Shown piece by piece: positions 11,631 to 33,122 of a stretch of DNA of 37,462 nucleotides (the first letter of the stretch is position 1; each line of letters begins with the position of its first letter). Under the pieces are notes generated by a model. That model was given only the letters and a program-made list of their open reading frames with translations, searched no databases and was not told the DNA's origin. The stretch covers positions 1 through 37,462 of the forward strand of contig NZ_ANBB01000006.1 of NCBI RefSeq assembly GCF_000341105.1. The letters run 5' to 3'. This DNA comes from Nocardiopsis potens DSM 45234. GTDB lineage: Bacteria; Actinomycetota; Actinomycetes; Streptosporangiales; Streptosporangiaceae. The position numbers and the translations under genes were made by a program.

Positions 11631-11653
11631 GGATCCGCCCGCCGGGCGGATCC
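11631..11653. repeat. Perfect 10-3-10 palindrome
   Basis: Arms GGATCCGCCC and GGGCGGATCC flank GCC, followed by CCACTAACAG and no T-tract. It lies 70 bases upstream of the micro-ORF and 244 bases before the sulfatase. It may be an operator or an attenuator stem. Confidence 0.5.
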
Positions 11654-11722
11654 CCACTAACAGATGGGGAATGCAGGGAAAGCGCCGGGCCCGTGGTCAT
11701 CCGGGGTGGGCGGAGAAAACCC

Positions 11723-11854: not shown

Positions 11855-11896
11855 ATGCCACCTGCCCCCGCGTTTCCGTCGCGATGAGAGGTATGC

Positions 11897-13876
11897 ATGG
11901 CTTCCCTGGACCGACGCACATTGTTCACCGCCGCCGGCGGCGCCGCCGCGGGAATGGCGGCCGGCGCCGCCGCCACGGCCCTCGCGGTCGAATCCGGAAA
12001 CGGCTCCGGTGATTTCTCCGGATTCGGCGGCGCGCGGAGCGCCGTCGACGAGGAACGGCTCGATTTCGGCGACGAGCGCGATTTCGAAGACGCGGACAGG
12101 GGCTTCGTCGCCGCCCTTTCCCCCGGGGTCGTCGAGGACGGGGACGGGAAGGTCGTCTGGGACGGCGACTCCTACGGCTTCCTGGAGGAGGACGTCCCCG
12201 AGACCGCCAGCAGGAGCCTGTGGCGGCAGTCGCGGCTCGCGGCCAAGCAGGGCCTGTACAAGGTCACCGACCGCGTCTACCAGGTGCGCGGGCTCGACCT
12301 GTCCAACATGACCCTGATCGAAGGCGACCGCGGGGTCGTGGTCGTCGACCCGCTCATCTCCGCCGAGACCGCCGCCGCGGCGCTGGAGCTGTACCGCGAG
12401 CACCGGGGGAAGGAGGCCGACCGGACCGAGGTGACCGGGCTGGTCTTCACCCATTCCCACGCCGACCACTTCGGCGGGTGCCGCGGCGTCCTGCCGGACG
12501 GCGGCTCCGAGGAGGTCCCCGTGCTGGCCCCGCAGGGGTTCATGCAGCACGCGGTCTCGGAGAACGTGTACGCGGGGACGGCCATGCAGCGCCGCGCCGT
12601 CTACATGTACGGATCGCGGATCCCCCGCTCGCCCTCGGGGCAGATCGGGTGCGGGCTGGGCCAGGCCATGTCCACGGGGGCGATCGGGCTGATCCCGCCC
12701 ACCACGGAGATCACCGAGACCGGGCAGGTGGAGACGGTCGACGGGGTGGAGTTCGAGTTCCAGATGACGCCGGGCACCGAGGCCCCCGCCGAGCTGAACT
12801 TCCTCCTGCCCGGGCTGCGCGCCCTGTGCATGGCGGAGAACGCCACGCACACGATGCACAACATCATCACGCTGCGCGGCGCGCAGGTGCGCGACCCGCG
12901 GGTGTGGGCGCACTACCTGGACGAGTCCATCGTGCTCTTCGGGGACAGGGCGGACGTGGCGTTCGCCTCGCACCACTGGCCGACGTGGGGCGGCGAGCGC
13001 ATCACCGCGCTGCTGGAGAAGCAGCGCGACCTGTACGCCTACATGCACGACCAGACGCTGCGGATGATCAACCTGGGCATGACGGGGCCCGAGATCGCCG
13101 AGGAGATCACCCTGCCGCCGGCGCTGGCGGAGACCTGGGCCAACCGCGGGTACTACGGGTCGCTCAGCCACAACGTCAAGGGGATCTACCAGCGCTACAT
13201 GGGCTGGTTCGACGGGAACCCGGCGCACCTGTGGGAGCACCCGCCGGCCCAGGCGGCCCGGCGGTACGTGCAGGCGCTGGGCGGGCGGGCCGGCGCGCTG
13301 GACGCGGCGAAGGCGTTCGCGGAGGAGGAGGACCTGCGGTTCGCGGCGACGCTCCTCGACCACCTGGTGTTCGCCGACCCCGACGACGAGGAGGCCAAGG
13401 AGGAGCTGGCGCAGGTGTACACGCGCCTGGGGCACGCGGCGGAGAACGCCGTGTGGCGCAACTTCTACCTCACCGCCGCCCAGGAGCTGCGCGAGGGGGT
13501 GGCGAAGACGCCCACCGACACGACCGGCCGGGACATGCTGATGGCCCTGGGCGTGGACCAGCTGATCGATTCGGTGGCGGTGCGGATCGACGGGCCCCGG
13601 GCGTGGGACCTGAAGGTCCGGATGGACTGGAGCCTGCCGGAGCAGGACGAGGTGTGGCACCTGACGCTGCAGAACGGGGTGCTGACCTACCGCCGCGGCA
13701 CCGAGCCCGACCCGGACGCCGGAGTCGTGCTCACCATGACCAAGGCCCGGCTGCTCGGCCTGCTGGGCGGCGAGGGCCTGGACGGCATCGAGGTGAAGGG
13801 GGACGAGTCCCTGGTGCAGCAGGTGCTGGACGTCGTGAGCGACCCGGACACCGATTTCGCGATCGTGACGCCCTAG
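11897..13876 (+). CDS. Alkylsulfatase, metallo-beta-lactamase fold, Tat-exported
   Basis: 659 residues. The N-terminus DRRTLFTAAGGAAAGMAAG is a twin-arginine signal. The metal site THSHADH sits at about residues 185-191, with later ligands in ENATHTMHN and SHHWPTWG. The C-terminal part (about 530-659) has the SCP2-like sterol-carrier fold that completes SdsA/BDS1-type enzymes. The enzyme should hydrolyse primary or secondary alkyl sulfates outside the membrane with two zinc ions. The length is normal and the reading frame intact. The stop TAG (13874-13876) lies inside the target duplication of the IS481 element that follows, so the insertion changed nothing in the protein but moved its terminator 1.05 kb away. 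Confidence 0.92.
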   Translation: MASLDRRTLFTAAGGAAAGMAAGAAATALAVESGNGSGDFSGFGGARSAVDEERLDFGDERDFEDADRGFVAALSPGVVEDGDGKVVWDGDSYGFLEEDVPETASRSLWRQSRLAAKQGLYKVTDRVYQVRGLDLSNMTLIEGDRGVVVVDPLISAETAAAALELYREHRGKEADRTEVTGLVFTHSHADHFGGCRGVLPDGGSEEVPVLAPQGFMQHAVSENVYAGTAMQRRAVYMYGSRIPRSPSGQIGCGLGQAMSTGAIGLIPPTTEITETGQVETVDGVEFEFQMTPGTEAPAELNFLLPGLRALCMAENATHTMHNIITLRGAQVRDPRVWAHYLDESIVLFGDRADVAFASHHWPTWGGERITALLEKQRDLYAYMHDQTLRMINLGMTGPEIAEEITLPPALAETWANRGYYGSLSHNVKGIYQRYMGWFDGNPAHLWEHPPAQAARRYVQALGGRAGALDAAKAFAEEEDLRFAATLLDHLVFADPDDEEAKEELAQVYTRLGHAAENAVWRNFYLTAAQELREGVAKTPTDTTGRDMLMALGVDQLIDSVAVRIDGPRAWDLKVRMDWSLPEQDEVWHLTLQNGVLTYRRGTEPDPDAGVVLTMTKARLLGLLGGEGLDGIEVKGDESLVQQVLDVVSDPDTDFAIVTP

Positions 13877-13877: not shown

Positions 13878-14924
13878 TGTAATGATCATGGACGTTGTTG
13901 ACAGCAGGCCTTGATCAATGACGGAGACCTCCGATGTGGTGGAACTACCAGGTCACACACCACACGGAGGCCTCCATGTCCCACCGTAACGCCCGCCTGA
14001 CCGTCCACGGGCGCCTCCTGCTCGTCCAGCGCATCACCGCCGGCCGCCCCGCGGCCCACGTGGCCGCCCAGATGGGCATCTCCCGCACCACCGCCCACAA
14101 ATGGCTCCGCCGCTACGAAACCGAAGGCCGAACCGGCCTGTCCGACCGGCCCAGCCGCCCGCACACCACCCCCCGGCGCACCCCCGCCGAGGCCGAGCAG
14201 GCCGTGTGCCGGCTGCGCAGGGCCCGCAGACTCGGCCCGGCCCGCATCGCCGCCATCACCGGCATGCCCGCCTCCACCGCGCACCGGATCCTGGTCCGCC
14301 ACCGCCTCAACCGCCTGGCCCGCCTGGACCGGCCCACCGGCCAAGCGATCCGCCGCTATGAGCGCGAGCGCCCGGGCGAGCTGGTCCACATCGACGTCAA
14401 AAAGCTCGGCCGCATCCCCGACGGGGGCGGACGGCGAGCCCGGGGCCGGGCCGCCTGCCCCGACCGCAGGAGCAGGATCGGCTTCGACTACGTCCACTCG
14501 GCCATCGACGACCACTCGCGCCTGGCCTACTCCGAGGTCCACCCTGATGAGAAGGCCGCCACCTGCGCGGGCTTCCTCCGGCGGGCCGCGGCCTTCTTCG
14601 CCTCGGCCGGCATCGCCGTCGAGCGGGTGCTCACCGACAACGCCTGGGCCTACCGCAGGAGCCGGGCCTTCAAGCAGGCCCTGGCCGACATCGGCGCCCG
14701 GCCCCGCTTCATCCGGGCCTACCGGCCCCAGACCAACGGCAAGGTGGAGCGGTTCAACCGGACCCTGGTCGAGGAGTGGGCCTATGCGCGGGCCTACTCC
14801 TCCAGCGCCGAGCGGACCCGGGCCCTGGAGGAGTTCCTGCACGCCTACAACCACCACCGCTGCCATACCGCATTGGGAGGGCGACCACCGATCAGCCGCG
14901 TGAACAACGCACCGGGGTATCACA
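13878..14924 (+). mobile_element. IS481-family insertion sequence, 1047 bp, complete
   Basis: The ends are imperfect inverted repeats that begin TGT and share a GTTGTT block at positions 17-22 from each tip (about 15 of 25 positions match). A 6-bp duplication CCTAGC flanks the element (13872-13877 and 14925-14930). IS481-group elements are known to target NCTAGN sites and duplicate them, which fits exactly. One transposase gene fills the element. Confidence 0.93.
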
Positions 14925-14929
14925 CCTAG
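13976..14929 (+). CDS. IS481-family transposase
   Basis: 317 residues. An N-terminal HTH (residues 12-60, QMGISRTTAHKWLRRYETEG) and a second HTH-like segment (GPARIAAITGMPASTAHRIL) precede an RNase-H-like DDE core: Asp140 in VHIDVKK, Asp221 in VLTDNAWAY and Glu258 in NGKVERFNRT. The ATG at 13976 has GGAGGCC upstream; an in-frame ATG at 13934 lies too close to the tip to be likely. The last sense codon (ACC) and the stop TAG (14927-14929) come from the right target duplication, so the element borrows its stop codon from the target. The frame is intact, so the element may be active. Confidence 0.93.
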   Translation: MSHRNARLTVHGRLLLVQRITAGRPAAHVAAQMGISRTTAHKWLRRYETEGRTGLSDRPSRPHTTPRRTPAEAEQAVCRLRRARRLGPARIAAITGMPASTAHRILVRHRLNRLARLDRPTGQAIRRYERERPGELVHIDVKKLGRIPDGGGRRARGRAACPDRRSRIGFDYVHSAIDDHSRLAYSEVHPDEKAATCAGFLRRAAAFFASAGIAVERVLTDNAWAYRRSRAFKQALADIGARPRFIRAYRPQTNGKVERFNRTLVEEWAYARAYSSSAERTRALEEFLHAYNHHRCHTALGGRPPISRVNNAPGYHT

Positions 14930-21110: not shown

Positions 21111-22361
21111 GTGCCCGTCCGAACCCTGCGCGCGGCGATCACGCTCGCCCCCCACCTGTTCCTGCTGTCCGCCTGGCCTTGGCGCGCCCTGGCCTACCTG
21201 CTGTCGGGGGTGGCGGCGGGCTCCCTGCTGTTCGGGACCGCGCAGGCGCTGGTGGTGTACTGGCCCGAACCCGCTCAGGAACGGCGCCTCTTCGGCCCGC
21301 TCCTGGGGATGCTGTTCCTGGGGGCGGTCGTCGGGAGCACCCCGCTCGTCGCCCGGTGGGGCCGGTGGTGCGAAGGGCTGGTGGGGGAGGGGCCGGAGGC
21401 GCCCCAGCGGGAGGGCCGCGGGGCGGGAGGCCCGTGGGCCCGGGCCCGGGTCCGGCTGTTCTCACCGCGGCCGTGGCGCGACGTGGGGTACACCGTGCTC
21501 AGCTTCAGCGCCCTCTATGTGCTGGACATGGCGGTGCTCCTGTTGGCGCTCGGCGCGCCTTTGAGGGGGGTGCTCAGCTTTTGGAACGCCGAGGGCCTGA
21601 GGGTGTTCGAATGGGTTCCCACGGTGATCGCCTGGGGTTCGCTGTGGCTGGTGGGGCTCTACCTGGTGGCGGCGTGGGCGTCGGCGCGCTCCGAGATCGC
21701 CCGCGCGGTGCTGTCGCCGCGGGAGGAGCGCCTGGTCGCGGAGCTGCGCGCCGTCACGGATTCGCGCGCGGCGCTGGCGGAGGCCTTCGACGAGGAGCGC
21801 TGCCGCATCGAGCGCGACCTCCACGACGGCGCCCAGCAGCGCCTGGCCGCGGTGAACGCCTCCCTCGGCCTGGCCCGGCTCGACCTGGCACCCGATTCCC
21901 CGGCGGCGGCCGCCGTCCGCCAGGCCCAGGAGCAGGTGACGGCCGCCCTCAGCGAGCTGCGCGACCTGGTGCGCGGCATCCACCCCCGGGTGCTCACCGA
22001 ACGGGGGCTGCGGGCCGCCCTGCTGGACGTGGCCGCCCGGACGGGCTCGCCGGTGGAGATCGACCTCGACCTGCCCGGGCGCCTGCCGGGGGCGGTGGAG
22101 TCCACCGCCTACTTCGTGGTGTGCGAGGCCCTGGCGAACGCCGCCAAGCACGCTCCCGGCGCCCCGGTGCGGGTGCGGGGCGGTGTGCGGGACGGGGCGC
22201 TGCGGGTGGCCGTCACCGACGAGGGGCCCGGAGGCGTGAATCCGGACGGCGGCGGGCTGAACGGACTGCGCCACCGGTTGGCGGTCCTGCGCGGGGAGCT
22301 GTCCGTGGACAGCCCTGAGGGCGGGCCGACCACCGTGCGATTGGAGATCCCGGAGGAATGA
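21111..22361 (+). CDS. Sensor histidine kinase, HisKA_3 (NarL-partner) class
   Basis: 416 residues. Four or five hydrophobic stretches lie in the first 190 residues, with no large extracytoplasmic domain, so it is an intramembrane-type sensor. The HisKA_3 box RCRIERDLHDGAQQR puts the phospho-acceptor at His238. The ATPase domain has an N box (VCEALANAAKHA) and a G box (VTDEGPGG, then GGGLNGLRHRL). A probable -10 (TAGTGT, 21098-21103) places transcription at the GTG itself, so the mRNA is likely leaderless. It is followed by the response regulator 19 bases later and is divergent from the exporter it probably controls. It is intact, but its partner regulator is not. Confidence 0.92.
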   Translation: MPVRTLRAAITLAPHLFLLSAWPWRALAYLLSGVAAGSLLFGTAQALVVYWPEPAQERRLFGPLLGMLFLGAVVGSTPLVARWGRWCEGLVGEGPEAPQREGRGAGGPWARARVRLFSPRPWRDVGYTVLSFSALYVLDMAVLLLALGAPLRGVLSFWNAEGLRVFEWVPTVIAWGSLWLVGLYLVAAWASARSEIARAVLSPREERLVAELRAVTDSRAALAEAFDEERCRIERDLHDGAQQRLAAVNASLGLARLDLAPDSPAAAAVRQAQEQVTAALSELRDLVRGIHPRVLTERGLRAALLDVAARTGSPVEIDLDLPGRLPGAVESTAYFVVCEALANAAKHAPGAPVRVRGGVRDGALRVAVTDEGPGGVNPDGGGLNGLRHRLAVLRGELSVDSPEGGPTTVRLEIPEE

Positions 22362-22380
22362 CGCGAACGGCGATGGGGCA

Positions 22381-22770
22381 ATGCGGATGACGGGGACGAC
22401 GAAGGCCCTAAGGGTCGTGGCGGCGGACGACTCGGTGCTGCTCCGCGAGGGGGTGGCGGGTGTCCTGGCGAGGTTCGGGCACGAGGTGGTCGCGGCGGTC
22501 GGCGACGCCGACGCTCTGCAGGAGGCGGTCCGCGAACACGATCCGGACCTGGTCGTCACGGACGTGCGCATGCCGCCGGGGTACGCGGACGAGGGGCTGC
22601 TGGCGGCGGTCGGGATCCGGCGTGCGCGCTCCGGCCTGGGGATCATCGTGCTCAGCCAGTACGTGCAGCCGGCCTACGCCGCGGAGCTGCTGGAGATCGA
22701 CGCCCCAGGGGGTGTGGGGTACCTGCTCAAGGAGCGCATCGGCGACGTGGAGGAGTTGGGGTGTCGGTAA
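22381..22770 (+). pseudogene. Response regulator, receiver half (5' part of a gene split by the transposon)
   Basis: Bases 22381-22757 encode 125 complete codons of a NarL/LuxR-type regulator: LRVVAADDSVLLREGVAGVL, phospho-acceptor Asp61 in LVVTDVRMPPG, and the switch Lys in GYLLKERIGDVEE. At 22758 the frame enters the transposon end and stops after a few foreign codons (LGCR), giving a possible 129-residue receiver-only protein. Joining to 32831 after removal of the transposon and one GAGTT restores GDVEEFAEAVAKVASGG, the normal linker of these proteins. The DNA-binding half is at 32831-33122. The receiver could still drain phosphate from the kinase. Confidence 0.93.
22753..22757. repeat. 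Target-site duplication of the transposon, left copy
   Basis: GAGTT, repeated at 32826-32830, codes for part of Glu-Glu-Phe of the split regulator. Confidence 0.9.
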
Positions 22771-22800
22771 GGAGCGTGTCACCAGGTGCCAAGTAACCCG
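22758..22800 (+). repeat. Left terminal inverted repeat of the transposon
   Basis: 43 bases match the complement of 32783-32825 exactly, and the match continues to 22806 with one mismatch at 22801. Tn3-family repeats are usually near 38 bp, starting with a G run, so this is slightly long. Confidence 0.93.
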
Positions 22801-22907
22801 CGAGTAACTTACGGGTTCGCCGGACAACCAGCCCCAGGGCCCCGGAAGATCGTGGATAGCCGGGCGCACCGCCCGGCCAAGGACACGAGCGGGCAGGGGA
22901 CGGTCGG

Positions 22908-25865
22908 GTGGCACGGGATCTGGACCTGGACGAACTCCTCGACGCCTTCACCCTCACCGCCGACGAGTTGAAGCTGCTGCGGAACAAGTCCGGGGCGACC
23001 CGGCTCGGGTTCGCGGTGACCCTGCGCTTCCTGCTCTGGCGCGGCCGGTTCCCGCGCGGCCGCGGCGAGGTGCCCGACAACGCCGTCGTCCACGTGGCCA
23101 GGCAAGCCAAGGTCGAGCCTTCCGAGATCGCCTTCTACGACTGGCAGGGGCGCTCGGCCAAGCGGAACCGGACCGAGATCCGCGACTTCACCGGCTTCGG
23201 CGAGTGCTCGGTCGCCGACGCCGAGAAGGTCACCCTGTGGCTGGCCGAGAACGTGTGCGACCAGGAGCGCAACCCCGACCGGGTACGCCAGCGCCTGCTG
23301 GAGCACTGCAAAGAGGAGCTGATCGAGCCGCCGGAGAAGACCCGCGTCGAGCGGATCGTCCGCTCGGCGCTGAGCCAGGCCGAGGATCAGATGATGGCCC
23401 GCGCGGCGGGCGAGGTGCCCGCCGAGGTCGTCGAGCGGATGCTCACGCTGATCGGTCAGGCCAGCGACGACCCCGACGAGGCACCGGCGGACGGGGAAGG
23501 GCGTGAGGTGTATGCGCAGATCAAGGACGCCCCGGGCAACGTCAGCCTCAAGACGCTGATCGCGGAGAAGACGAAGCTGGAAGCGGTGCGTGCCGTGGGT
23601 GTGCCGCACCGGGCCTTCGCGCGCATCCCGGCCAAGATGGTGGCCGCGTGGCGGGATCGGGCGGCGGCCGAGGCGCCCTCGCACCTGCGCGGCCACCCGC
23701 ACCAGATCAAGGTGTGCCTGCTGGGGGCGCTGCTGTTCTCGCGCGAGCGGGAGATCACCGACACCCTGGTGGACCTGGTGATCTCGACCGTGCACAAGAT
23801 CAATGCCCGCGCGGAGAAGGTCGTGACCGAAGAGTTCGTCCGCGACCTCAAGCGGGTCTCGGGCAAGGAGGACATCCTCTTCCGGATCGCCGAGGCCTCC
23901 GTGGGCTCGCCCGAGTCGCCGGTGCGCGAGGTGGTCTACCCGGCCGCCGGCGGCGAGCAGACGCTGAAGGACCTGTTGGCCGAGTTCCGGTCCAAGGGCA
24001 CCAGCTACCGCCAGCACAAGCAGCGCGTGTTCAAGTCCTCCTACTCCAACCACTACCGCGTGGGGCTACTCCAGCTCCTGGACGTGCTGGAGTTCCACTC
24101 CTCCAACGACGTGCACCGCCCGCTGGTCAAGGCGTTGGAGCTGATCTGCCGCTACCGGGAGGTGGCCAACAACCGCCCCTACTACGACGCCGGTGAGCAC
24201 GTCCCCGTCGACGGGGTCATCCCCTTCGAGCTGCGCGAGCTGCTGCACCGCACCGACCAGCGCGGCCGGTCGCGGGTGCTGCGCACCGTGTACGAGTGCG
24301 GGGTGTTCCAGAGGCTGCGCGAGCAGTTGCGCTGCAAGGAGATCTGGGTGGTGGGCGCCGACCGGTGGCGCAACCCCGATGAGGACCTCCCGGCCGACTT
24401 CGCGGACAAGCGCGTGGAGAACTACCGAAAGCTCAACCAGCCCCTGGACCCGGAAGAGTTCATCGCCCGCCTGCACGGCGACATGGTGACCGAGCTGGCC
24501 GGGCTCAATGACGCGCTGCCCCGCCTGGACTGGGTAGAGGTCGCCGAGCGCAAGGCGGGGGCGATCAGCCTCTCCCCGTTGGAGGCGCGCGCCGAGCCGC
24601 GCAACCTGCGCAGGTTGAAGAAGGCGGTGCGCGCCAAGTGGGGTGTGGTCCCGTTGCTGGACATGCTCAAGGAGACCGCGCTGCGCACCGGGATGCTGGA
24701 GGCGTTCACCGGGGTCGGCACCCGCGAGGCCATCACGACCGAGGAGCTGTGGGAGCGCCTGATTCTGGTGATCTACGCCTATGGCACCAATACCGGGCTG
24801 CGCCGGGCGGCCGCGGGCGAGCACGCCTACTCCGAGGACGATCTGCGCTACATCCGGCGCCGCTACTTCACCATCGAGGGGGCCCGGGGCGCCGCCCGCG
24901 CGATCGCCAACGCGACCTTCGCCATCCGCTCGGAGGCGATCTGGGGGCAGGGGTCGACCGCGGTGGGGTCGGACTCCACGCATGTCAAGGCGTTCGACCA
25001 GAACCTGTTCACGGAGTGGCACTCGCGGTACGGGGGCCGGGGGGTGCTCATCTACTGGCACATCGAGGAGAGGTCGATGGCCGTGCACTCCCAGTTGCTG
25101 TCGTGCTCGGCCTCGGAGGTGCACGCCATGGTGGAGGGGGCGATGCGGCACGGCACCTCGATGAACGTGGAGGCCAACTACGTCGACTCCCATGGCCAGT
25201 CCGAGATCGGGTTCGGCATCACCCGGCTGCTGGGGTTCAAGCTGCTGCCGCGCATCAAGCAGATCAACCGCGTCAAGCTCTACCAGCCCGACCGCGGCGA
25301 CCTGGAAACCTACCCGCTGTTGCGTCCGGCGATGACCCGGCCGATCCGCTGGGGCCTGATCGCCCAGCAGTACGACCAGATGATCAAGTACGCCACCGCG
25401 ATCCGGCTGGGCACCGCCTCCACCGAGGCGATCCTGCGCCGCTTCACCCGGGCCGCCTCCCACCCCACCTACGCGGCGATGCTGGAGGTGGGACGGGCGG
25501 AAAAGACCGCGTTCTGCGCGCGTTACCTGCGCGACCGCGACGTGCAGTACGAGGTGGGGTCGGGGCTGAACGTGGTGGAGAACTCCCACGGCATCCACGG
25601 CGAGATCCTCTACGGCAAGACCGGTGAGCTGTCCTCCAACCGGCGCGAGGAGCAGGAGCTGACCATGCTCGCCCTGCACATCCTGCAATCGTGCCTGGTG
25701 TACGTGAACACGCTGATGCTCCAACAGGTGCTGGCCGAACCCGAATGGGAGAACGCGCTGACGGCCGAGGACCGGCGCGGGCTCACTCCGCTGTTCTCCT
25801 CGAACATGAACCCCTACGGCGACATTCGCCTGAACATGGGCAACCGCCTGGCCCTGGGCGGCTGA
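22908..25865 (+). CDS. tnpA: Tn3-family transposase TnpA
   Basis: 985 residues, full length for the family. The N-terminal DUF4158-like DNA-binding part (LTADELKLLRNKSGATRLGFAV) and the C-terminal DDE_Tnp_Tn3 domain are both present. The catalytic triad is Asp689 in VGSDSTHVKAF, Asp760 in NYVDSHGQSEIGF and Glu891 in NVVENSHGIHG; Asp689 and the 131-residue D-E spacing agree closely with Tn3 TnpA. The GTG start at 22908 has AGGGGA eight to thirteen bases upstream. It lies 107 bases inside the left repeat, so its promoter must be within or close to that end. It makes the 5-bp staggered cuts that give GAGTT and forms cointegrates. Confidence 0.97.
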   Translation: MARDLDLDELLDAFTLTADELKLLRNKSGATRLGFAVTLRFLLWRGRFPRGRGEVPDNAVVHVARQAKVEPSEIAFYDWQGRSAKRNRTEIRDFTGFGECSVADAEKVTLWLAENVCDQERNPDRVRQRLLEHCKEELIEPPEKTRVERIVRSALSQAEDQMMARAAGEVPAEVVERMLTLIGQASDDPDEAPADGEGREVYAQIKDAPGNVSLKTLIAEKTKLEAVRAVGVPHRAFARIPAKMVAAWRDRAAAEAPSHLRGHPHQIKVCLLGALLFSREREITDTLVDLVISTVHKINARAEKVVTEEFVRDLKRVSGKEDILFRIAEASVGSPESPVREVVYPAAGGEQTLKDLLAEFRSKGTSYRQHKQRVFKSSYSNHYRVGLLQLLDVLEFHSSNDVHRPLVKALELICRYREVANNRPYYDAGEHVPVDGVIPFELRELLHRTDQRGRSRVLRTVYECGVFQRLREQLRCKEIWVVGADRWRNPDEDLPADFADKRVENYRKLNQPLDPEEFIARLHGDMVTELAGLNDALPRLDWVEVAERKAGAISLSPLEARAEPRNLRRLKKAVRAKWGVVPLLDMLKETALRTGMLEAFTGVGTREAITTEELWERLILVIYAYGTNTGLRRAAAGEHAYSEDDLRYIRRRYFTIEGARGAARAIANATFAIRSEAIWGQGSTAVGSDSTHVKAFDQNLFTEWHSRYGGRGVLIYWHIEERSMAVHSQLLSCSASEVHAMVEGAMRHGTSMNVEANYVDSHGQSEIGFGITRLLGFKLLPRIKQINRVKLYQPDRGDLETYPLLRPAMTRPIRWGLIAQQYDQMIKYATAIRLGTASTEAILRRFTRAASHPTYAAMLEVGRAEKTAFCARYLRDRDVQYEVGSGLNVVENSHGIHGEILYGKTGELSSNRREEQELTMLALHILQSCLVYVNTLMLQQVLAEPEWENALTAEDRRGLTPLFSSNMNPYGDIRLNMGNRLALGG

Positions 25866-25977
25866 GACCGAGACCAGGACCGCGAGACCCTGGGGGCTCG
25901 CCCGGTGGAGGAGCGCAACCACCCTGCACGTCAGCGCGGACGGCGTCCGAACCGGGTGCGGGAGTCGGCGGGCGTGC

Positions 25978-26565
25978 CTACAGTCCGAAGGCGCCGCCCT
26001 CGACGAGGATGATCACGCCCAGGACGATGAGGACCAAGGGCAGCAGGATGTGGCCCCAGCGGCTGAGCGCGCGGGCGATGGGGGCGCGGGTGGCCAGGAA
26101 CTTGCCGGCCGCGCACAGCACACCGACCAGGACCAGGAAGACCGTCACGTAGACGGCCAGGCTGGTGTTGCCGACGGTGACGAAGACGGGGACGTAGACG
26201 CCGATGTTGTCGCCACCGTTGGCGAAGGTGACGGTGGCGACGGTGAGCAGGGCCGGGCCGTTGTCGCTGTCGGGGGCCTCATCGCCGTCGCCGCGCCACA
26301 GTTTCCAGGCCGCGCGCAGGCCCAGCAGCAGCGGGAGCAGCCCGAAGTAGGCGCGCACCGCCTCGGGCAGGAAACTCGCGCCGAAGGTGGCGGCCAGCGC
26401 GGTGACCAGGATCGCGATGAAGCCCAGGTACTGCCCGGCCACGACCCGGGCGGTGGCCCCGCGCTGCCCTGCGCCTTGGGCGAAGAACAGCGCGAGCACC
26501 ACGATGTCGTCGATGTTGGTGACGGCGAACAGGCCGGCCGCCTGGGCGATGATGATCAGGTCCAC
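25978..26565 (-). CDS. cadD: CadD-family cadmium resistance transporter
   Basis: 195 residues, almost all membrane. Two characteristic acidic motifs of CadD are present: TNIDDIVVLALFFAQ near the N-terminus and ANGGDNIGVYVPVF in the middle, in helices that probably carry the metal. The length matches CadD proteins of Gram-positive bacteria, where they export Cd(II) and sometimes Zn(II). The GTG start overlaps the end of lspA by ten bases, so it is the last gene of the leftward metal operon (sensor, ATPase, LspA, CadD). Confidence 0.9.
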   Translation of the reverse strand: MDLIIIAQAAGLFAVTNIDDIVVLALFFAQGAGQRGATARVVAGQYLGFIAILVTALAATFGASFLPEAVRAYFGLLPLLLGLRAAWKLWRGDGDEAPDSDNGPALLTVATVTFANGGDNIGVYVPVFVTVGNTSLAVYVTVFLVLVGVLCAAGKFLATRAPIARALSRWGHILLPLVLIVLGVIILVEGGAFGL

Positions 26566-27071
26566 GCGTCAGGGTCCTTGCCGGGCGGTGCCGGTGCGCC
26601 CTGGCGAGCGGAGGTGAACACGAGCAGCACCGCGCCGCCGACGATGAAGGCATCGGCGAGGTTGAAGGTGGGCCACCAGCCCGTGTGCAGATAGTCGGTG
26701 ACCACACCGTCCAGGCCGCGGTCGATGAGGTTGGCCAGCGCACCGCCCAGCACCCCGGCCAGACCGACGCGGCCCGGCAGCGGGGTGGTGGGAGCGGTGT
26801 ACCAGGCGTAGGCGGCCACGGCGGCGGTGATGAGCCCGGTCAGGGCCACGATGACCCCGGCGGGCAGGGTCGCGCCCAGGTTGAAGGCGACACCGGGGTT
26901 GTAGGTCAGGCGCAACTCCAGCAGTCCCAGGAGTCGCGCTCCGGGGCCGCCGGCCAGATGGTGCTCGGCCAAGGCCTTCAGGGCCAGGTCGGCGGCGGTG
27001 AGCGCGAGAGCGGCGGCCAGCACGCCCCAGCGGGGGAGCGTGCCGGCCGTGGCCGGTGTCGTCGGCCTCAC
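26556..27071 (-). CDS. lspA: Lipoprotein signal peptidase (LspA/PbrC-like)
   Basis: 171 residues with four membrane helices. The family motifs are NPGVAFNLG (58-66), GGALANLIDR with catalytic Asp117, and PTFNLADAFIVGG with catalytic Asp140. This is an aspartyl protease that cuts prolipoproteins. An extra lspA next to a P-type ATPase is known from lead and cadmium operons, where the homologue is PbrC. No lipoprotein gene is visible in the transposon, so its substrate would be elsewhere. The GTG start overlaps the ATPase stop by four bases. Confidence 0.92.
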   Translation of the reverse strand: MRPTTPATAGTLPRWGVLAAALALTAADLALKALAEHHLAGGPGARLLGLLELRLTYNPGVAFNLGATLPAGVIVALTGLITAAVAAYAWYTAPTTPLPGRVGLAGVLGGALANLIDRGLDGVVTDYLHTGWWPTFNLADAFIVGGAVLLVFTSARQGAPAPPGKDPDAWT

Positions 27072-29041
27072 GCCTTGGCCTCCGCGTGCTCGCGCGGTGC
27101 GGCGGTGGCGGGGCCGCCGGGGGCCAGCCCCAGGCGGCGGGTGCGTCCGGCGCGGATGCCGTTGCCGATGACCACGACCTCGGCGACCTCGTGCACCAGC
27201 ACGACCGCGGCCAGGCCCAGGACCCCGAACAGGGCCAGGGGCATCAGGGCGATGATGATGGCCAGCGACAGGCCCACGCTCTGCCACATGATGGCCCGGG
27301 TGCGGCGGGCGTGTGCCAGGACGCGGGGCAGGTGGCGCAGGTCCTCGCCCATCAGGGCGACGTCGGCGGTCTCGATGGCCACGTCGGTGCCCATCGCGCC
27401 CATCGCGATCCCCAGGTCGGCGGTGGCCAGGGCGGGGGCGTCGTTGACACCGTCGCCGACCATCGCGACGGGGCCGTGTGCCCGGAGTTCGCCGACGAGG
27501 CGGGATTTGTCCTCGGGGCGCAGGTCGGCGTGCACGTCGCCCGCTTCGATGCCCGCCTGGGCGGCCAGGGCGGCGGCGGTGGCCGGGTTGTCGCCGGTGA
27601 GCATCACCACCCGGTAGCCCGCACCGCGCAGGGAGGCGACGACCTCGCCGGCTTCGGGGCGCAGTTCGTCGCGGACCGCGATGGCGCCCAGCAGCGCGCC
27701 GTCGTCCTCGACCAGGACGGCGGTGGCTCCGGCGTGCTGCATCCGCGCCACATCCCCGGCCAAGGGGCCGGCCTCGATCCAGCCCGGGCGACCCAATCGC
27801 ACATCGCGGCCGTGCAGGGTGCCGGTGAGGCCGGCGCCGGTGACCGCTTCCACCTGCTCGGCGCGCTGGGGTGCGGGGGCGGCGGCCAGGATCGCGGCCG
27901 CCAGCGGGTGTTCGCTGCGCTCCTCTAGGGCGGCGGCCACCGCCAGCACCTGCTCGGCGGTGTGGCCGGGCGCGGGGAGGGTCTCGATGACGGCCGGGCG
28001 GTTGCGGGTCAGCGTGCCGGTCTTGTCCAGAGCCACGGTGCGGATCCGGCCCATGGCCTCCAGGGCGGCTCCGCCCTTGACCAGGGTGCCGTGCTTGGAG
28101 GCGGCGCCGATCGCGGCCACCACGGTGACGGGCACGGAGATCGCCAGTGCGCACGGGGAGGCGGCCACCAGCACGACCAGGGCGCGTTCGACCCAGGTCA
28201 GCGGGTCGCCGAACAGCGCGCCCACGACGGCGATGAGCACCGCGGCGATCATCACCCCGGGCACCAGCGGTTTGGCGATGCGGTCGGCCAGGCGCTGTCC
28301 GGCGCCCTTGCGGGACTGCTCTGCCTCCACGATGGACACGATGCGGGCCAGGGAGTTGTCGGCCGCGGCGGAGGTGACGGTGACCTCCAGGGCTGCGGTG
28401 CCGTTGATGGACCCGGCGAACACCTCGCTGCCGGGGCCCGCCTCCACGGGCACGGACTCGCCGGTGATGGCCGAGGTGTCCAGGCTGGTGTGCCCGGAGG
28501 TGATGGTCCCGTCGGTGGCCAGGCGCTCGCCGGGGCGCACCACCAGCGTGTCGCCCACGACCAGCTCGGCCGGGTCGACGGTGTGCTCCACACCTTCGCG
28601 GAGCACCCGGGCCTGGTCGGGGACCAGGTCCAGCAGGGCGCGCAGGCCGCGGCGGGTGCGGGCCACGGAGTACTCCTCCAGCCCTTCGGCGATGGTGTAG
28701 AGCACCGCGAGCATCGCGGCCTCGCCCACCTCGCCCAACAGCACGGCGCCGATGGCGGCGATGGTCATCAGCGTGCCCACGCCGATCTTGCCCTGGGCCA
28801 GGCGGCGCACAGTACCGGGGACGAACGTCCAGGCGGCCACGGCCAGGGCGGCGGCCTTGAGCACCAGGCCCACCAGGTCTGGTGCGCCGACCCATCCGGC
28901 GCTGTACCCGGCCAGCAGCAGCGCCGCGGCCACGGCGGCGAAGCGGATCTCGCCCACCTGCCACAGCGTCTGGGGCTCGTGCTCCTCGGCTTCTTCTCCT
29001 GTGCGGGGCTCCTCGCCGCCGCATCCGCAGGCGTCACTCAC
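27068..29041 (-). CDS. P1B-type heavy-metal ATPase with SPC motif
   Basis: 657 residues. There is no HMA domain; the N-terminus carries ACGCGGEE with two cysteines. Catalytic motifs are TGES (193-196), DKTGT with phosphorylated Asp339, SEHPLA (376-381), TGDN (482-485) and GDGVND (529-534). The ion-binding motif in the sixth helix is SPC (295-297), not the CPC of CadA/ZntA, and a late helix has HEVAEVVVIGNGIR. SPC plus a later HE motif marks the P1B-4 group (CzcP, CtpD), which moves Co, Zn or Cd. Context suggests Cd or Pb efflux, but the motif leaves Co and Zn open. The GTG start overlaps the sensor gene by eight bases. Confidence 0.93.
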   Translation of the reverse strand: MSDACGCGGEEPRTGEEAEEHEPQTLWQVGEIRFAAVAAALLLAGYSAGWVGAPDLVGLVLKAAALAVAAWTFVPGTVRRLAQGKIGVGTLMTIAAIGAVLLGEVGEAAMLAVLYTIAEGLEEYSVARTRRGLRALLDLVPDQARVLREGVEHTVDPAELVVGDTLVVRPGERLATDGTITSGHTSLDTSAITGESVPVEAGPGSEVFAGSINGTAALEVTVTSAAADNSLARIVSIVEAEQSRKGAGQRLADRIAKPLVPGVMIAAVLIAVVGALFGDPLTWVERALVVLVAASPCALAISVPVTVVAAIGAASKHGTLVKGGAALEAMGRIRTVALDKTGTLTRNRPAVIETLPAPGHTAEQVLAVAAALEERSEHPLAAAILAAAPAPQRAEQVEAVTGAGLTGTLHGRDVRLGRPGWIEAGPLAGDVARMQHAGATAVLVEDDGALLGAIAVRDELRPEAGEVVASLRGAGYRVVMLTGDNPATAAALAAQAGIEAGDVHADLRPEDKSRLVGELRAHGPVAMVGDGVNDAPALATADLGIAMGAMGTDVAIETADVALMGEDLRHLPRVLAHARRTRAIMWQSVGLSLAIIIALMPLALFGVLGLAAVVLVHEVAEVVVIGNGIRAGRTRRLGLAPGGPATAAPREHAEAKA

Positions 29042-29417
29042 CGCGCACCTCCATCGTCGTGTGGCTCTCGGTTCCGTAGTTGGGGCACAGCGCGACCGCG
29101 CTGCCGGTCGCGGCCAGCAGGACCTCGGCCGAGGCCAGCAGGTCCAGCAGTTCGGGGCGGGCCAGGGAGTAGAACACCTGCCGCCCCTCGGGGCGCCCGT
29201 CGACAAGGCCGCAGTCGCGCAGGCACGCCACGTGCTTGGAGACCGTGGACTGGGCCAGTCCGAGCTGTTCCACCAGGTCGGCCACGCGCGCCTCGCCCTG
29301 GGCCAGGCGGCGCACGATGGCCAGGCGGGTGCCGTCGGAGAGGCTGTGGAAGAGGGCCTCGGCGGCGCCTATGCCCGCGGTTGTGGCTTGGCATCCATCC
29401 GTGCTATTCATCGTCAT
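29034..29417 (-). CDS. cmtR: ArsR-family metal sensor, CmtR type
   Basis: 127 residues from the ATG at 29417. A winged helix (LFHSLSDGTRLAIVRRLAQGE, then AQSTVSKHVACLRDCGLV) is followed by VALCPNYG. Cys65 and Cys69 in the recognition helix and Cys111 in the tail match the Cd/Pb ligands Cys57, Cys61 and Cys102 of mycobacterial CmtR. Apo-repressor would block the operon and Cd(II) or Pb(II) would release it. The predicted minus-strand -10 (TATGAT, 29424-29429) puts transcription at the ATG, so the mRNA is probably leaderless. An in-frame ATG at 29468 lies within the promoter region and was rejected. Confidence 0.9.
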   Translation of the reverse strand: MTMNSTDGCQATTAGIGAAEALFHSLSDGTRLAIVRRLAQGEARVADLVEQLGLAQSTVSKHVACLRDCGLVDGRPEGRQVFYSLARPELLDLLASAEVLLAATGSAVALCPNYGTESHTTMEVRGE

Positions 29418-29460
29418 GAGACGATCATATCCCATTTCGACGATGATAGAAGGTGTGGGC
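29418..29460. promoter_or_regulatory. Divergent promoter region of the metal operon and methyltransferase cluster
   Basis: This 43-base, AT-richer gap holds the minus-strand -10 TATGAT (complement of 29424-29429) and repeated ATCGTC-like elements on the minus strand suited to ArsR-family binding. With so short a gap the same sensor probably controls the rightward cluster too. Confidence 0.6.
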
Positions 29461-30081
29461 ATGCTCATGAACCGCGTGGAGTCGGCACTGATCGACTCAC
29501 CGCCCCGGCGCCTGCTCCAGCACTACGAGGCCAACCTGCTCATCAAGCTGGGCGGGCGCACCCCCGGCGCCCGCGCCGCCGAGCTGGGCTGCGGCCCCGG
29601 CTACGGCACCAGGCTCATCCTGGACACCTTCGGCGCCGCGTCCGTGGACGCCGTGGACCTGGACCCGAAAATGCTGGCCAGAGCACGGCGGCGCCTTCAG
29701 CGCCACGGCGAGCGCGTCTACCTCGCGCGCGGCTCGGCCACCGACCTGGCCGCCGCCTTCGCCCCCATCGGCGCAGGCAAGGACGCCTCCTACGACGCGG
29801 TGTTCGACTTCGCGATCATCCACCACATCCCGAACTGGCGCGACGCCCTGGCCGAGGTCGCCCGCGTCCTGGCCCCCGGCGGCCGGTTCTTCTTCGACGA
29901 GGTCACCGCCACCGCCCTGGCCCGCCCCACCTACCGGGCGCTGTTCGACCACCCCACCGCCGACCGGTTCAGTGCGGGCGAGTTCCTCGCCGAGCTGGGC
30001 CGCCACGGGTTGCACATCGGTGATGCCTGGCGCACCCGCATCGGCGGCGACTACCTCCTGGGCGTCGCCACCCGCACCTGA
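29461..30081 (+). CDS. Class I SAM-dependent methyltransferase (metal-operon neighbour)
   Basis: 206 residues from the ATG at 29461, with AGAAGG upstream at good spacing (ATG at 29467 is possible). Motif I is AAELGCGPGYGTRL, motif II is VDAVDLDPKML, and AVFDFAIIHHIPNWRDALAEVARVL is the post-I/motif III region. The overall pattern is that of Methyltransf_11 enzymes acting on small molecules. The substrate is unknown. It starts the rightward three-gene cluster that shares its promoter region with the CmtR-type sensor, so metal-responsive expression is likely. Confidence 0.88.
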   Translation: MLMNRVESALIDSPPRRLLQHYEANLLIKLGGRTPGARAAELGCGPGYGTRLILDTFGAASVDAVDLDPKMLARARRRLQRHGERVYLARGSATDLAAAFAPIGAGKDASYDAVFDFAIIHHIPNWRDALAEVARVLAPGGRFFFDEVTATALARPTYRALFDHPTADRFSAGEFLAELGRHGLHIGDAWRTRIGGDYLLGVATRT

Positions 30082-30114
30082 GCCCTGCCCGCCCCACTTT
30101 GAACGGAGATCCCC

Positions 30115-30738
30115 GTGGCACTGGCCGCACTCGTCCTCTACCTGCTCGGCCTGGCCCTGGCCTTCGGTGTGCGCACCCTGGCCGCGTGGCGGCGCACCGG
30201 TGACACCGGGTTCCGCCGCCCGGACACCACCGCCTTCACCGCCCCCTGGTGGGGGAGCGTGCTCTTCGCCGGCGCACTCGCCCTGGGTCTGGCCGCACCC
30301 GTGGCCGCCCTGTTCGACCCGGCCACGGCCGCCCCGCCCAGGAGTGCGGGGGTCGTCGGGCTGGCCCTGATGCTGCTCGGTCTGGCCCTGGTGCTCGTCT
30401 CCCAGGCGGCGATGGGCGCCTCCTGGCGCATCGGCGTGGACGAGAACGAGCGCACGGAGCTGGTCACCCGCGGGATCTTCGCGCTCGTGCGCAACCCGGT
30501 CTTCACCGGCATGGGGGTGCTGCTGGCCGGGCAGGTGCTCGCCGTGCCCTCAGCGGTGTCCGCGGCGGCCCTGGCGGCCTTCGTCGCCGCCGTGCAGGTG
30601 CAGGTCCGCGCCATCGAGGAGCCCTACCTTGTGCGCACGCACGGCGCCGCCTACACCGGGTACGCCGCCCGGACCGGCCGCTTCCTGCCCGGAATCGGCC
30701 GCCTCACCGACCGCAACACCACGACAGGATCCCGATGA
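30115..30738 (+). CDS. Isoprenylcysteine carboxyl methyltransferase-family membrane protein
   Basis: 207 residues with four to five membrane helices. The C-terminal half has the ICMT/PEMT-like signature: SWRIGVDENERTELVTRGIF, RNPVFTGMGVLLAG and EEPYLVRTHGAAYTGYAART. These membrane enzymes use SAM; bacterial members have no prenylated substrate and mostly unknown roles, and the related MddA methylates methanethiol. The GTG start has GGAG a few bases upstream. It follows the soluble methyltransferase by 33 bases and overlaps the small membrane gene by four (ATGA). Confidence 0.87.
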   Translation: MALAALVLYLLGLALAFGVRTLAAWRRTGDTGFRRPDTTAFTAPWWGSVLFAGALALGLAAPVAALFDPATAAPPRSAGVVGLALMLLGLALVLVSQAAMGASWRIGVDENERTELVTRGIFALVRNPVFTGMGVLLAGQVLAVPSAVSAAALAAFVAAVQVQVRAIEEPYLVRTHGAAYTGYAARTGRFLPGIGRLTDRNTTTGSR

Positions 30739-30869
30739 GCGGCTGCTGCACCCCCGACGACCACGACCCCACCCCCGAAGAAGAGCGCACCGGCAGGCTC
30801 GCGCTGGTCCTCATCGTGGCCATCGGTGCCGCCACCCTGGTGGTCGTCGGTATCCTCCTGCTGCCCTAG
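30735..30869 (+). CDS. 44-residue membrane peptide with Cys-Cys-His N-terminus
   Basis: The peptide begins MSGCCTPDDHDPTPEE and then has one hydrophobic helix (about 22-43). Its ATG overlaps the stop of the ICMT-like gene (ATGA), which is strong evidence for translation. The adjacent cysteines, aspartates and histidine at the N-terminus could bind a soft metal; this is inference. It is the last gene of the rightward cluster; no homologous family is recognised. Confidence 0.7.
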   Translation: MSGCCTPDDHDPTPEEERTGRLALVLIVAIGAATLVVVGILLLP

Positions 30870-30911
30870 AGCACGCAAGAGAAGTCGCGCGGCACTGCGG
30901 CACTGCGGGCC

Positions 30912-31958
30912 TCACCGATCGACGGTGAGCACCTCCAGGGCGGCGGCCTTGTCGGCCTCGGTGGGCAGCGCGTAGCGGCGGGTGGTGTTGATGTCGGCGT
31001 GCCCCATCAGCTCGGCGACGGTGACCAGGTCCACCGGTTCGCGCGCCAATTCGCTCCCGCCGCGCACCAGGTCGGTGCCGAAGGTGTGCCGCAGCACGTG
31101 CGGCCCGAACGCCTCGCCGTCGTCGGAGGGGCCGATCCCCGCCGCCGCGCCCAGCTCGCAGACCGCGGTGTTGGCCGCCCGGGTCGACAGCGCCTGGCCG
31201 TCGCGGTTGCGCACCAGCGGACCGGCAGCAGGGCGGCCGAGTTCGTCCAGGAGGCGTTCGAGGGAGGCGCGCGCCTCGGCGTGCAGCGGGACGGCGCGGT
31301 CCTTGCCGCCCAGCCGTCCCTTGCCGCGCACCCGCACGCTGCCCCGCCGCGCGGACAGGCGGATGTCGGCGACGTCCAGGGCGACGATCTCGGCGATGCG
31401 CAGGCCCGCGTAGTAGGCCAGGTGGCAGAGGGCCCGGTCCCGGGGCGAGGCGTCGCGGGCCACCACGCGTAGGAAGCGGAGCTTGGCCCGGCCATCCAGC
31501 GCACGCGGGGCGCTGGGGCGGCCCAGGTGTTCGCGGACCACGTCGGGCCGTCCCGAGCCGCGCAGGGCGAAGAAGGCGTCGATGGCGGCGAGCCGGTTGT
31601 TGATGGTGGCCGCCGACAGGTGGGTGCCCCGGGCGGTGCGGGTGTTCTTCAGGGTGCGGCGGTAGTCGCGTACCGACCAGTCCCGCGCTGCGGGATCGGT
31701 GAGCGGGTCGCCGTCCAGGGCGCCGGCCTGGCGGGCCTCGGCGAGCCAGGCCAGGAAGTGGGCGGTGTTGCGCTGGTACTTGTCGCGGGTGGCCGCGCCC
31801 AGGTCGGTCGCCGAGGCCAGCCTCGCGGCGAAGGCCGCGCGCTCGGCGTCCAGGTCGCCGGGCAGCACCACGGTTCGGCGCGGCCGCCCCGTGCGTGTGT
31901 TTCCAGAAGTCGAATCGGAGGTCTGTTCAGCGGAGGAGGATGTGTTTCCAGAAGTCAC
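30912..31958 (-). CDS. Tyrosine recombinase, likely transposon resolution enzyme (TnpI-like)
   Basis: 348 residues from the GTG at 31958. A SAM-like core-binding domain (about 35-135) precedes the catalytic domain. The catalytic residues are Arg187 (YAGLRIAEI), Lys213, His287 and Arg290 (PHVLRHTFG), His320 (LMGHADINTT) and Tyr329 (RRYALP), a full set. Its first 30 residues contain TSGNT twice, coded by two 16-bp direct repeats of the adjacent recombination site. A downstream GTG (31871) would exclude them. In Tn4430 and related elements a tyrosine recombinase, TnpI, resolves cointegrates in place of a serine resolvase; that role is inferred here from the site and location. Confidence 0.88.
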   Translation of the reverse strand: MTSGNTSSSAEQTSDSTSGNTRTGRPRRTVVLPGDLDAERAAFAARLASATDLGAATRDKYQRNTAHFLAWLAEARQAGALDGDPLTDPAARDWSVRDYRRTLKNTRTARGTHLSAATINNRLAAIDAFFALRGSGRPDVVREHLGRPSAPRALDGRAKLRFLRVVARDASPRDRALCHLAYYAGLRIAEIVALDVADIRLSARRGSVRVRGKGRLGGKDRAVPLHAEARASLERLLDELGRPAAGPLVRNRDGQALSTRAANTAVCELGAAAGIGPSDDGEAFGPHVLRHTFGTDLVRGGSELAREPVDLVTVAELMGHADINTTRRYALPTEADKAAALEVLTVDR

Positions 31959-31997
31959 TCCGGCAGTCTACTTCCGGGAACGCTGATTTCCAGAAGT
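31896..31997. repeat. Probable resolution site: dif-like core plus two direct repeats
   Basis: The core at 31970-31997 consists of ACTTCCGGGAA, a 6-base centre (CGCTGA) and TTTCCAGAAGT; the arms are inverted with two mismatches. This 11-6-11 geometry is that of XerC/D dif sites. Two identical 16-mers TGTGTTTCCAGAAGTC (31896-31911 and 31941-31956) share the arm sequence and lie 45 bases apart beside the core. One inverted core plus two accessory direct repeats next to the recombinase gene is the plan of the Tn4430 internal resolution site. Confidence 0.78.
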
Positions 31998-32014
31998 ATA
32001 ACCCCGACCCGCCC

Positions 32015-32020
32015 TACAGT
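32015..32020 (+). promoter_or_regulatory. -10 element of the GNAT gene, leaderless
   Basis: TACAGT ends six bases before the GTG at 32027, so transcription probably starts at the start codon. No clear -35 is seen at the normal distance. The promoter begins just beyond the recombination core, where bound recombinase could affect it. Confidence 0.5.
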
Positions 32021-32026
32021 GGGTGC

Positions 32027-32734
32027 GTGGCCAAACACAAGAAGCGCACCGCCCCCGCCCCGTCGATCACCCCCGCCAAGCTCGCCCAGGGCTGGTCCGC
32101 CCCCGCCGGCGGCCGCATCCGCCCGGCCCACCCCGACGATCTAGGCCGGGCCGCCGAACTGCTCTCCGATGTGGGCACCGACATCACCGAGGACCTGAAC
32201 GCCGCCGCAGGGAAGGCGGACACCTCCCTACTGCTGCACGAGTGCCTGAGCAGCCGTGACAACGAGAGTGCGATGCGAGCCGTCATCAGCGGCACCCTGG
32301 GCGGCCGCGAGGTCGACCCCCTCGCGGGCCTGTCGGCCCTGCTGGTGGCCACCGACCGCACAGGGCAGGTCCTCGGCTGTGCCCTGATGATCCCGCCGGG
32401 CCGTTTCCTGGCCCAGGTGCGCCGGGTCAACGAGGTCCAGGGCTTGGCGCTGATGCTGGTCATCACCAAGCTCAAAGGGCTGGCGGTGGACCCCGCCCAC
32501 CGCGGCCGGGGGATCGGGGCGGCCCTGGTCAAACGCGGCGTCCAGTTGTACGAGCAGAGCGGCTTCCACGTGATGTACGGGCAGTTCACCGCCGAGAGGA
32601 ACCTGGAGCCGTTCTACCGGCGCCAGCGCTTCACCGTGCTGGACCTGGGGGAGCCGCTGCAACCGCTGCTGGCCCTGCCCGCGTCGATCGTCTCCGAGGG
32701 CGAGGAACGGTTCTTCCACCGCATGCTGGGCTGA
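32027..32734 (+). CDS. GNAT-family N-acetyltransferase
   Basis: 235 residues from the GTG at 32027. Residues 1-15 are basic (AKHKKRTAP). The acetyltransferase domain has AALLVATDR-like central strands (LSALLVATDRTGQVLGCALM), motif A VDPAHRGRGIGAALVKRGV at about 150-168, and the motif B segment FYRRQRFTVLDLGEP. The substrate is unknown; GNAT proteins on mobile elements can modify antibiotics, toxins or tRNA-bound amino acids. It is the last gene before the right transposon end and is transcribed towards it, away from the recombinase gene. Confidence 0.85.
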   Translation: MAKHKKRTAPAPSITPAKLAQGWSAPAGGRIRPAHPDDLGRAAELLSDVGTDITEDLNAAAGKADTSLLLHECLSSRDNESAMRAVISGTLGGREVDPLAGLSALLVATDRTGQVLGCALMIPPGRFLAQVRRVNEVQGLALMLVITKLKGLAVDPAHRGRGIGAALVKRGVQLYEQSGFHVMYGQFTAERNLEPFYRRQRFTVLDLGEPLQPLLALPASIVSEGEERFFHRMLG

Positions 32735-32738
32735 GCGC

Positions 32739-32783
32739 GTGAGTAGCTTCGAAACCGCGGTCGTCGACCGCGAAACTACTCAC
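32739..32783. repeat. Nested hairpin abutting the right transposon end
   Basis: Outer arms GTGAGTAG (32739-32746) and CTACTCAC (32776-32783) enclose an 8-1-8 palindrome, CGCGGTCG and CGACCGCG, at 32756-32772. The outer right arm is the inner tip of the terminal repeat. It may terminate the GNAT transcript. Confidence 0.65.
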
Positions 32784-32825
32784 GGGTTACTTGGCACCTG
32801 GTGACACGCTCCTTACCGACACCCC
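32783..32825 (-). repeat. Right terminal inverted repeat of the transposon
   Basis: This is the exact complement of 22758-22800; the match continues inward to 32777 with one mismatch. The target duplication GAGTT (32826-32830) follows directly. Confidence 0.93.
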
Positions 32826-32830
32826 GAGTT
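32826..32830. repeat. Target-site duplication of the transposon, right copy
   Basis: GAGTT, identical to 22753-22757. Confidence 0.9.
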
Positions 32831-33122
32831 CGCGGAGGCGGTGGCGAAGGTGGCGTCGGGCGGAACGGTCCTGGACCGCGAGGTGGTCCGGGTGATGATG
32901 GCGGCGCGGTCGAGCCCCCTCAACCGGTTGGCGCCCAGGGAGCGCGAGGTCCTGGCGCTCATGGCCAGGGGGGAGTCCAATGCGGCCATCGCGCGCCTGC
33001 TGGTGGTGTCCGACGCGGCGGTGCGCAAGCACATAGGTTCGATCTTCACCAAGCTCGACCTGGCTCCTCAGATGGACGGCCACCGGAGGGTGCTGGCGGC
33101 GCTGGCCTACCTCGACCGCTGA
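32831..33122 (+). pseudogene. Response regulator, LuxR-type DNA-binding half (3' part of split gene)
   Basis: This continues the regulator at 22381-22757: AEAVAKVASGGTVLDREVV, then the LuxR HTH RLAPREREVLALMARGESNA with AIARLLVVSDAAVRKHIGSI and a short tail ending AALAYLDR. Together the halves give 669 bases (222 residues and a stop), the usual NarL-type length. A GTG at 32841 with a nearby GGAGG could start an isolated DNA-binding fragment if transcription reads out of the transposon, but no promoter for that is clear. Confidence 0.92.

Follow-up and report, generated by a model that had tools for sequence, protein, structure and literature searches.

A Tn3-family transposon with a tyrosine recombinase at one end

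The window, that is, the whole stretch of 37,462 nucleotides of Nocardiopsis potens DSM 45234 analysed here, is one whole contig. It contains an intact Tn3-family transposon of 10,068 bp (22758–32825), in which TnpA is encoded at one end and a tyrosine recombinase at the opposite end. The left (22758–22806, plus strand) and right (32777–32825, minus strand) terminal inverted repeats are 49 bp long and match each other at 48/49 positions, and the target duplication GAGTT was found on both sides (22753–22757 and 32826–32830). Terminal inverted repeats of about 38 bp or more, starting with GGGG, are the norm in this family. The tnpA gene (22908–25865, plus strand) encodes a transposase of 985 aa (Pfam DDE_Tnp_Tn3, 8.9e-118; NCBIfam transpos_Tn3, 718 bits against a cut-off of 500). 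As regards membership of the Tn3 family, both the large TnpA with its Tn3 DDE domain and the terminal repeats with a 5-bp target duplication are present. This TnpA is the single Tn3 TnpA match in the genome, and the single serine-resolvase match lies on a different contig.

The cargo between the two end genes includes, on the minus strand, a Cad/CadD-type transporter (25978–26565; Pfam Cad, 5.9e-29; NCBIfam CadD, 109.6 bits, below the cut-off of 181.65), a signal peptidase II domain (Pfam Peptidase_A8, residues 672–805 of the ORF 26556–29024, from which the coordinates 26610–27011 were derived), a cadmium-family P-type ATPase (27068–29206; NCBIfam ATPase-IB2_Cd, 509.7 bits), whose true start is probably within the ORF, and an ArsR/SmtB-type metalloregulator identified by domain matches (29034–29468). 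On the plus strand, domain matches revealed a methyltransferase (29236–30081), its true start again probably within the ORF, and a PEMT/ICMT-type methyltransferase (30115–30738). A GNAT acetyltransferase gene (32027–32734, plus strand; domain match) lies between the proposed recombination core described below and the right end. GNAT relatives at E≤1e-40 were found in 3/345 genomes, and in one of these, G107, the copy is a fragment joined to this same end of the transposon. The position of the GNAT gene prompted the idea that the core is a cassette insertion site, which we rejected, these findings giving no sign of core-borne insertion. Another G107 contig (L206) carries a piece with a tnpA-like start, the 3′ part of the GNAT gene and both transposon ends, and it looks like an internally deleted derivative.

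Some further features were observed around the element. The transposon splits an apparent LuxR-type response-regulator gene (22360–22757 and 32826–33122, from the translated flanks), with the receiver part on the left and the LuxR-type HTH part on the right, and a HisKA_3 kinase gene (21111–22361) adjoins it. A long imperfect hairpin (32738–32784; GTGAGTAG...CTACTCAC) separates the GNAT gene from the right end and overlaps the terminal repeat. An IS481-like transposase gene with an rve domain was found at 13934–14929.

Core, accessory repeats and the overlapping recombinase gene

The tnpI-like tyrosine recombinase (30912–31958, minus strand; Pfam Phage_integrase, 7e-27) has 348 aa if it starts at the putative GTG at 31958. 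Alignment with 17 relatives showed R187, R290, H320 and Y329 to be invariant and K213 and H287 to be nearly so; we take these six residues to be the catalytic-type positions.

The 28-bp proposed recombination core (31970–31997, minus strand) reads ACTTCCGGGAA-CGCTGA-TTTCCAGAAGT, an 11-6-11 inverted repeat with arms at 31970–31980 and 31987–31997 and a 6-bp spacer at 31981–31986. Its left arm agrees with the reverse complement of the right arm at 9/11 positions. The core recurs in relatives, in many of which it is placed at −39 relative to the aligned recombinase start. Two identical accessory direct repeats of 16 bp, TGTGTTTCCAGAAGTC, lie on the same strand: DR1, the one nearest the core (31941–31956), adjoins the proposed tnpI start codon, and DR2 (31896–31911) lies 45 bp from DR1, within tnpI. 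Both coordinates and letters thus bear out the description in the earlier note of an 11-6-11 core accompanied by two identical 16-bp direct repeats built on the same arm sequence. That note had further called the site a GC-rich actinobacterial version; the surroundings are indeed actinobacterial and have about 74% GC, but the site motif itself is not GC-rich. The common 11-mer, TTTCCAGAAGT, occurs three times in forward and zero times in reverse orientation in the 6,909,969-base genome, and all three copies are at the putative resolution site. Any 11-mer present three times was found in only 3/3734 overlapping 130-bp segments of the contig, and all 3 cover this site.

If GTG 31958 is the start, DR1 and DR2 are both inside the recombinase frame and the core is upstream of it. 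Each repeat encodes the peptide TSGNT in frame, while the core is outside the frame. In 40/54 loci DR1 is immediately preceded by GTG or ATG. A −10-like hexamer, TAGACT (31965–31970, minus strand), was identified 6 nt before the GTG, and its first base is common to the core; a TAnnnT hexamer occupies this place in 38/54 loci. No full sigma-70 promoter was found at the site by a consensus sigma-70 scan, so the putative promoter is proposed from position and conservation.

The codons used for the repeated peptide were also counted. At the two glycine columns of the repeats, GGA accounted for 75/77 glycine codons (35/37 and 40/40), against 111/1636 downstream. This count covered 68 related, and hence not independent, loci with a frame of at least 300 aa, which were selected independently of the motif and aligned at the protein level; the other loci had a different residue or a gap at these columns. 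It agrees with an earlier count in which GGA made up 57/58 in 29 loci partly chosen by a GGAAA motif. On this codon evidence, the silent positions of the accessory repeats are held at the DNA level.

Layout and transposons among relatives

Recombinase relatives were found in 50/345 genomes of one actinobacterial order at E≤1e-50, and in 22/394 genomes drawn from the class, this order included, at E≤1e-30. Among 396 genomes drawn from the phylum only the organism's own genome gave a relative, and viral contigs gave weak relatives only. The upstream DNA of the relatives contained a core and two repeats in register. In a shuffle test, with the core spacer set to 5–8, the core-to-DR1 distance to 38–48 and the DR1–DR2 distance fixed at 45, the layout of a 28-bp core with direct repeats near +42 and +87 scored above the 99% point of 395 shuffles in 54/79 loci. 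The 42/45 spacing was unbeaten among 900 spacings in 47/89 rows. The figure was 44/79 after removal of 10 rows, which were duplicates of the same place or the more distant gene L154, and 42/69 (one of the 42 being a tie) after fragments and visibly broken copies had also been removed.

The layout test failed at 25/79 loci, of which nine were gene fragments or visibly broken copies. The 16 others were L065, L071, L092, L095, L100, L104, L108, L115, L118, L119, L121, L122, L165, L169, L170 and L175. Five of them from one genus (L115, L118, L119, L121 and L122) have kept the core and are missing a good DR2, and L169 starts at a contig end. L071 has one direct repeat only, which looks like the natural loss of one accessory repeat.

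The arm sequence differs by clade (CTTCYGGAA, CTTCCGAGA, CTTCTGATA and others) and the layout stays, with a core spacer of 6–8 and a core-to-DR1 distance of 40–45 across clades. In the GGAA-type clade the arms of 25 distinct cores carry 1.64 bits and the spacer 0.53 bits, and 39 distinct spacers were counted in 54 loci. With at most 2 mismatches, the core pattern was present in 63/345 genomes compared with 15/345 for a reversed control. Of 38 matched core places without a previously found recombinase, 10 had a recombinase or a piece of one and 28 had none that we could find; 11 of these 28 have 0–1 mismatch. Such recombinase-less cores may be relics, or they may be acted on in trans. L136 and L137 have kept the core and both direct repeats, and no recombinase gene was found in their 6.4-kb stretch. 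Solo cores without a recombinase found were also seen in two genomes of genus g35 (L125, 6820–6847; L126, 6818–6845). On one side both carry AATCCTGTTCCGATGTTCC, exactly or almost exactly, and one is beside arsenic-type genes according to an ORF reading.

A Tn3 TnpA gene or piece was identified in 35/72 recombinase loci and none in the examined stretch of the remaining 37/72, which suggests decay, short contigs or longer elements. Matching ends with identical 5-bp flanks were found at 9/15 loci (the window, L058–L064 and L099, with a 2-base offset in L060). The tnpA and tnpI genes are convergent at opposite ends in the window and L058–L064; they run in the same direction, kilobases apart, in L072, L097 and L099, and they diverge around the site in L105. 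In L061 a second Tn3 TnpA frame (10504–12972) lies directly at one transposon end, which gives the impression of a transposon inserted into another. The loci of genus g39, presumably Actinomadura-like, had been considered as TnpA-free, domesticated copies when a tblastn search using the window TnpA yielded little in their vicinity. This was dropped once a profile built from 13 TnpA sequences had detected Tn3 TnpA genes, or parts of such genes, close to several of these loci, which thus resemble the window transposon in kind, many of them in a decayed state.

The window TnpA is 98% identical to that of L061, 43% to that of L059 and 23% to the Tn4430-like group. It is also 60% identical to a Streptomyces plasmid TnpA that has genes annotated as 'recombinase family protein' nearby. 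The recombinases of L059 and the window are 86% identical, compared with 43% for their TnpA proteins. Between the window and L061 the identity is 94.5% over 7.3 kb and 87% over the module, and the similarity of the module starts exactly at the core. Judged from these identities, the recombinase and TnpA have different histories. An exchange of the resolution module between transposons is suggested, because L059 and the window share the module with quite different transposases and the similarity of the module to that of L061 starts at the core.

Function of the site and comparison with known systems

TnpI/IRS systems are defined by a tyrosine resolvase and a site made of the core IR1-IR2 with DR1 and DR2, according to the accessible part of a 2020 survey (PMC7157771), in which 3 of 190 Tn3-family elements have TnpI, namely Tn4430, Tn5401 and TnBth4. 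Our analysis indicates that the region is very probably (roughly 0.85) a cointegrate-resolution module of this type belonging to the Tn3-family transposon. This reading draws on the motifs, their recurrent layout, the DNA-level constraint on the repeats, the intact transposon and the conserved catalytic-type residues, all of which can be read from the sequence. The earlier note had proposed the TnpI/IRS-type design, and this gained support from the recurrence of the repeats at near-fixed spacing by the recombinase gene and from the complete Tn3-family transposon around that gene. It had also held that homologous elements lacking the repeats would count against the design; the opposite was seen, the repeats recurring in many genomes.

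In the Tn3 family, paste-and-copy transposition joins donor and target via two directly repeated copies of the element. TnpA would copy the transposon into a new target and so produce a cointegrate with two such copies. The recombinase would then bind four copies of the 11-bp motif per element. Two of them would form the 28-bp core, with strand exchange in the 6-bp spacer, and the other two, the accessory direct repeats at +42 and +87, would act as a topological filter. A complex needing the accessory repeats would limit exchange to two sites in one molecule, so that the cointegrate is resolved and not re-formed. The recombinase gene may be translated leaderless from GTG 31958. Site binding probably also represses this gene, since the proposed promoter lies next to the core, and the coding sequence from the start codon to about codon 21 covers DR1 and DR2.

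These positions of the motifs beside the putative promoter and start codon, together with the solo cores that persist without a recombinase gene, would also fit repeats that serve purely as operators, with the recombinase or some other regulator acting through them to repress the recombinase gene and recombination taking place elsewhere or not at all. We consider this very unlikely. A palindrome of fixed arms with a free 6-bp spacer, as found here, has the look of a tyrosine-recombinase core; the genome has no other exact copy of the 11-mer and the element has no serine resolvase. Bacillus TnpI, moreover, does both jobs at its site, as described in the accessible part of PMC7157771.

The catalytic domain family is shared with XerC/XerD. 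An 11-6-11 core is also the layout of dif. The recombinase matches the XerC and XerD models, below their equivalog cut-offs, and XerD in PDB. Almost the same layout, with repeats at +42/+88, was seen for a recombinase on a Micromonospora plasmid (L189, 3770–3900), where the stretch shown has no annotated tnpA. A site for dimer resolution of a chromosome or plasmid, or for integration, that was picked up by the transposon is, however, highly improbable. The genome has two separate Xer-like genes elsewhere, which fall in another clade (100/100) of the recombinase tree, and the Nocardiopsis site, unlike dif, has accessory repeats, recurs with tnpI and lies inside transposon ends. Lastly, although TSGNT is encoded by DR1 as well as DR2, it can practically be dismissed that the repeats arose by chance or as a side effect of this repeated peptide in the recombinase N-terminus: the genome count of the 11-mer, the count in 130-bp segments and the shuffle test in relatives rule out a chance origin, and the silent positions are conserved contrary to the codon usage of the genes themselves, the core is outside the frame, and Alicyclobacillus has the same layout before the gene.

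Taking the region as a TnpI/IRS-type module, we compared it with described systems. Tn4430 of Bacillus thuringiensis, Tn5401 and TnBth4 resemble it in having a tyrosine resolvase, IR1-IR2 with DR1 and DR2 beside the gene and a Tn3-type TnpA, and in Tn5401 promoters lie within the site and TnpI binding modulates expression, as given in the accessible part of PMC7157771. From the same source, tnpI and tnpA of Tn4430 are colinear, whereas those of the Nocardiopsis element are convergent, about 5 kb apart, with cargo between them. The likeness to the Tn4430 site design seen in the earlier note can be refined: the window TnpA, 23% identical to a Tn4430-like TnpA and a distant match to Tn4430 TnpA itself, is outside the Tn4430 subgroup, the recombinase does not cluster with either of the two other Firmicute transposon recombinases in the comparison, and the accessory repeats, unlike those of Tn4430, overlap the coding sequence.

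The Tn4430-like transposon of Paenibacillus sp. Cedars (L158), whose TnpA shares 72% identity with Tn4430 TnpA over a 232-aa segment of the latter, likewise has tnpI followed by tnpA, an 11-6-11 core and two direct repeats, but the repeats are at +53 and +88, before the gene, and the recombinase is 27.6% identical. The recombinase on plasmid p1 of Alicyclobacillus sp. SO9 (L155) is 39.4% identical over 297 aa and is followed by a gene for a DUF4158 protein. Its locus has the 28-bp core and repeats ACTTCYAATAA at +42/+87, with a different arm. It differs in that the recombinase lacks the N-terminal extension, the repeats precede the start codon, and the recombinase and DUF4158 genes are colinear. 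At six of nine reference loci outside the clade no convincing site was seen (L154, L186, L187 and L188 had none, and L184 and the Priestia Tn3 element L185 had low-scoring hits at different spacings), and the layout is therefore not universal among related recombinases. In a tree with several long branches, from which Tn4430 TnpI is absent, the actinobacterial recombinases join that of Alicyclobacillus SO9 (99/97) and not the Paenibacillus or Priestia transposon recombinases. As far as these comparisons tell, the element departs from the Bacillus paradigm in its own recombinase lineage, its distant TnpA, the ~5 kb between tnpI and tnpA, and the repeats in frame. Its anatomy is like that of TnpI/IRS; the recombinase may or may not descend from Bacillus TnpI.

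A broader view, for which we see about even odds, is that the module belongs to a widespread and as yet undescribed class of self-contained resolution cassettes, each made of a core, two repeats and a recombinase, which would move between unrelated Tn3 transposon lineages and actinobacterial plasmids. Such cassettes would keep one register (28/42/45) from Firmicutes to actinobacteria despite arm divergence. In actinobacteria they would be dual-coding, the accessory binding sites being also the translated N-terminus, with the promoter and leaderless start in the site, and the bound site would shut its own gene.

No actinobacterial TnpI/IRS system was found in the accessible parts of the open-access literature, including PMC7157771, PMC8138268, PMC6305408, PMC5357621 and PMC4902927, most subscription papers being outside the search. 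Many of the recombinase relatives in this order (50/345 genomes) have a recognisable site, compared with the three TnpI elements in the accessible part of the 2020 survey (PMC7157771). With their diverged arms and spacers, the relatives form a natural panel of recombinase/site pairs for studying the topological selectivity conferred by accessory repeats, and they may offer orthogonal recombination tools for actinobacteria.
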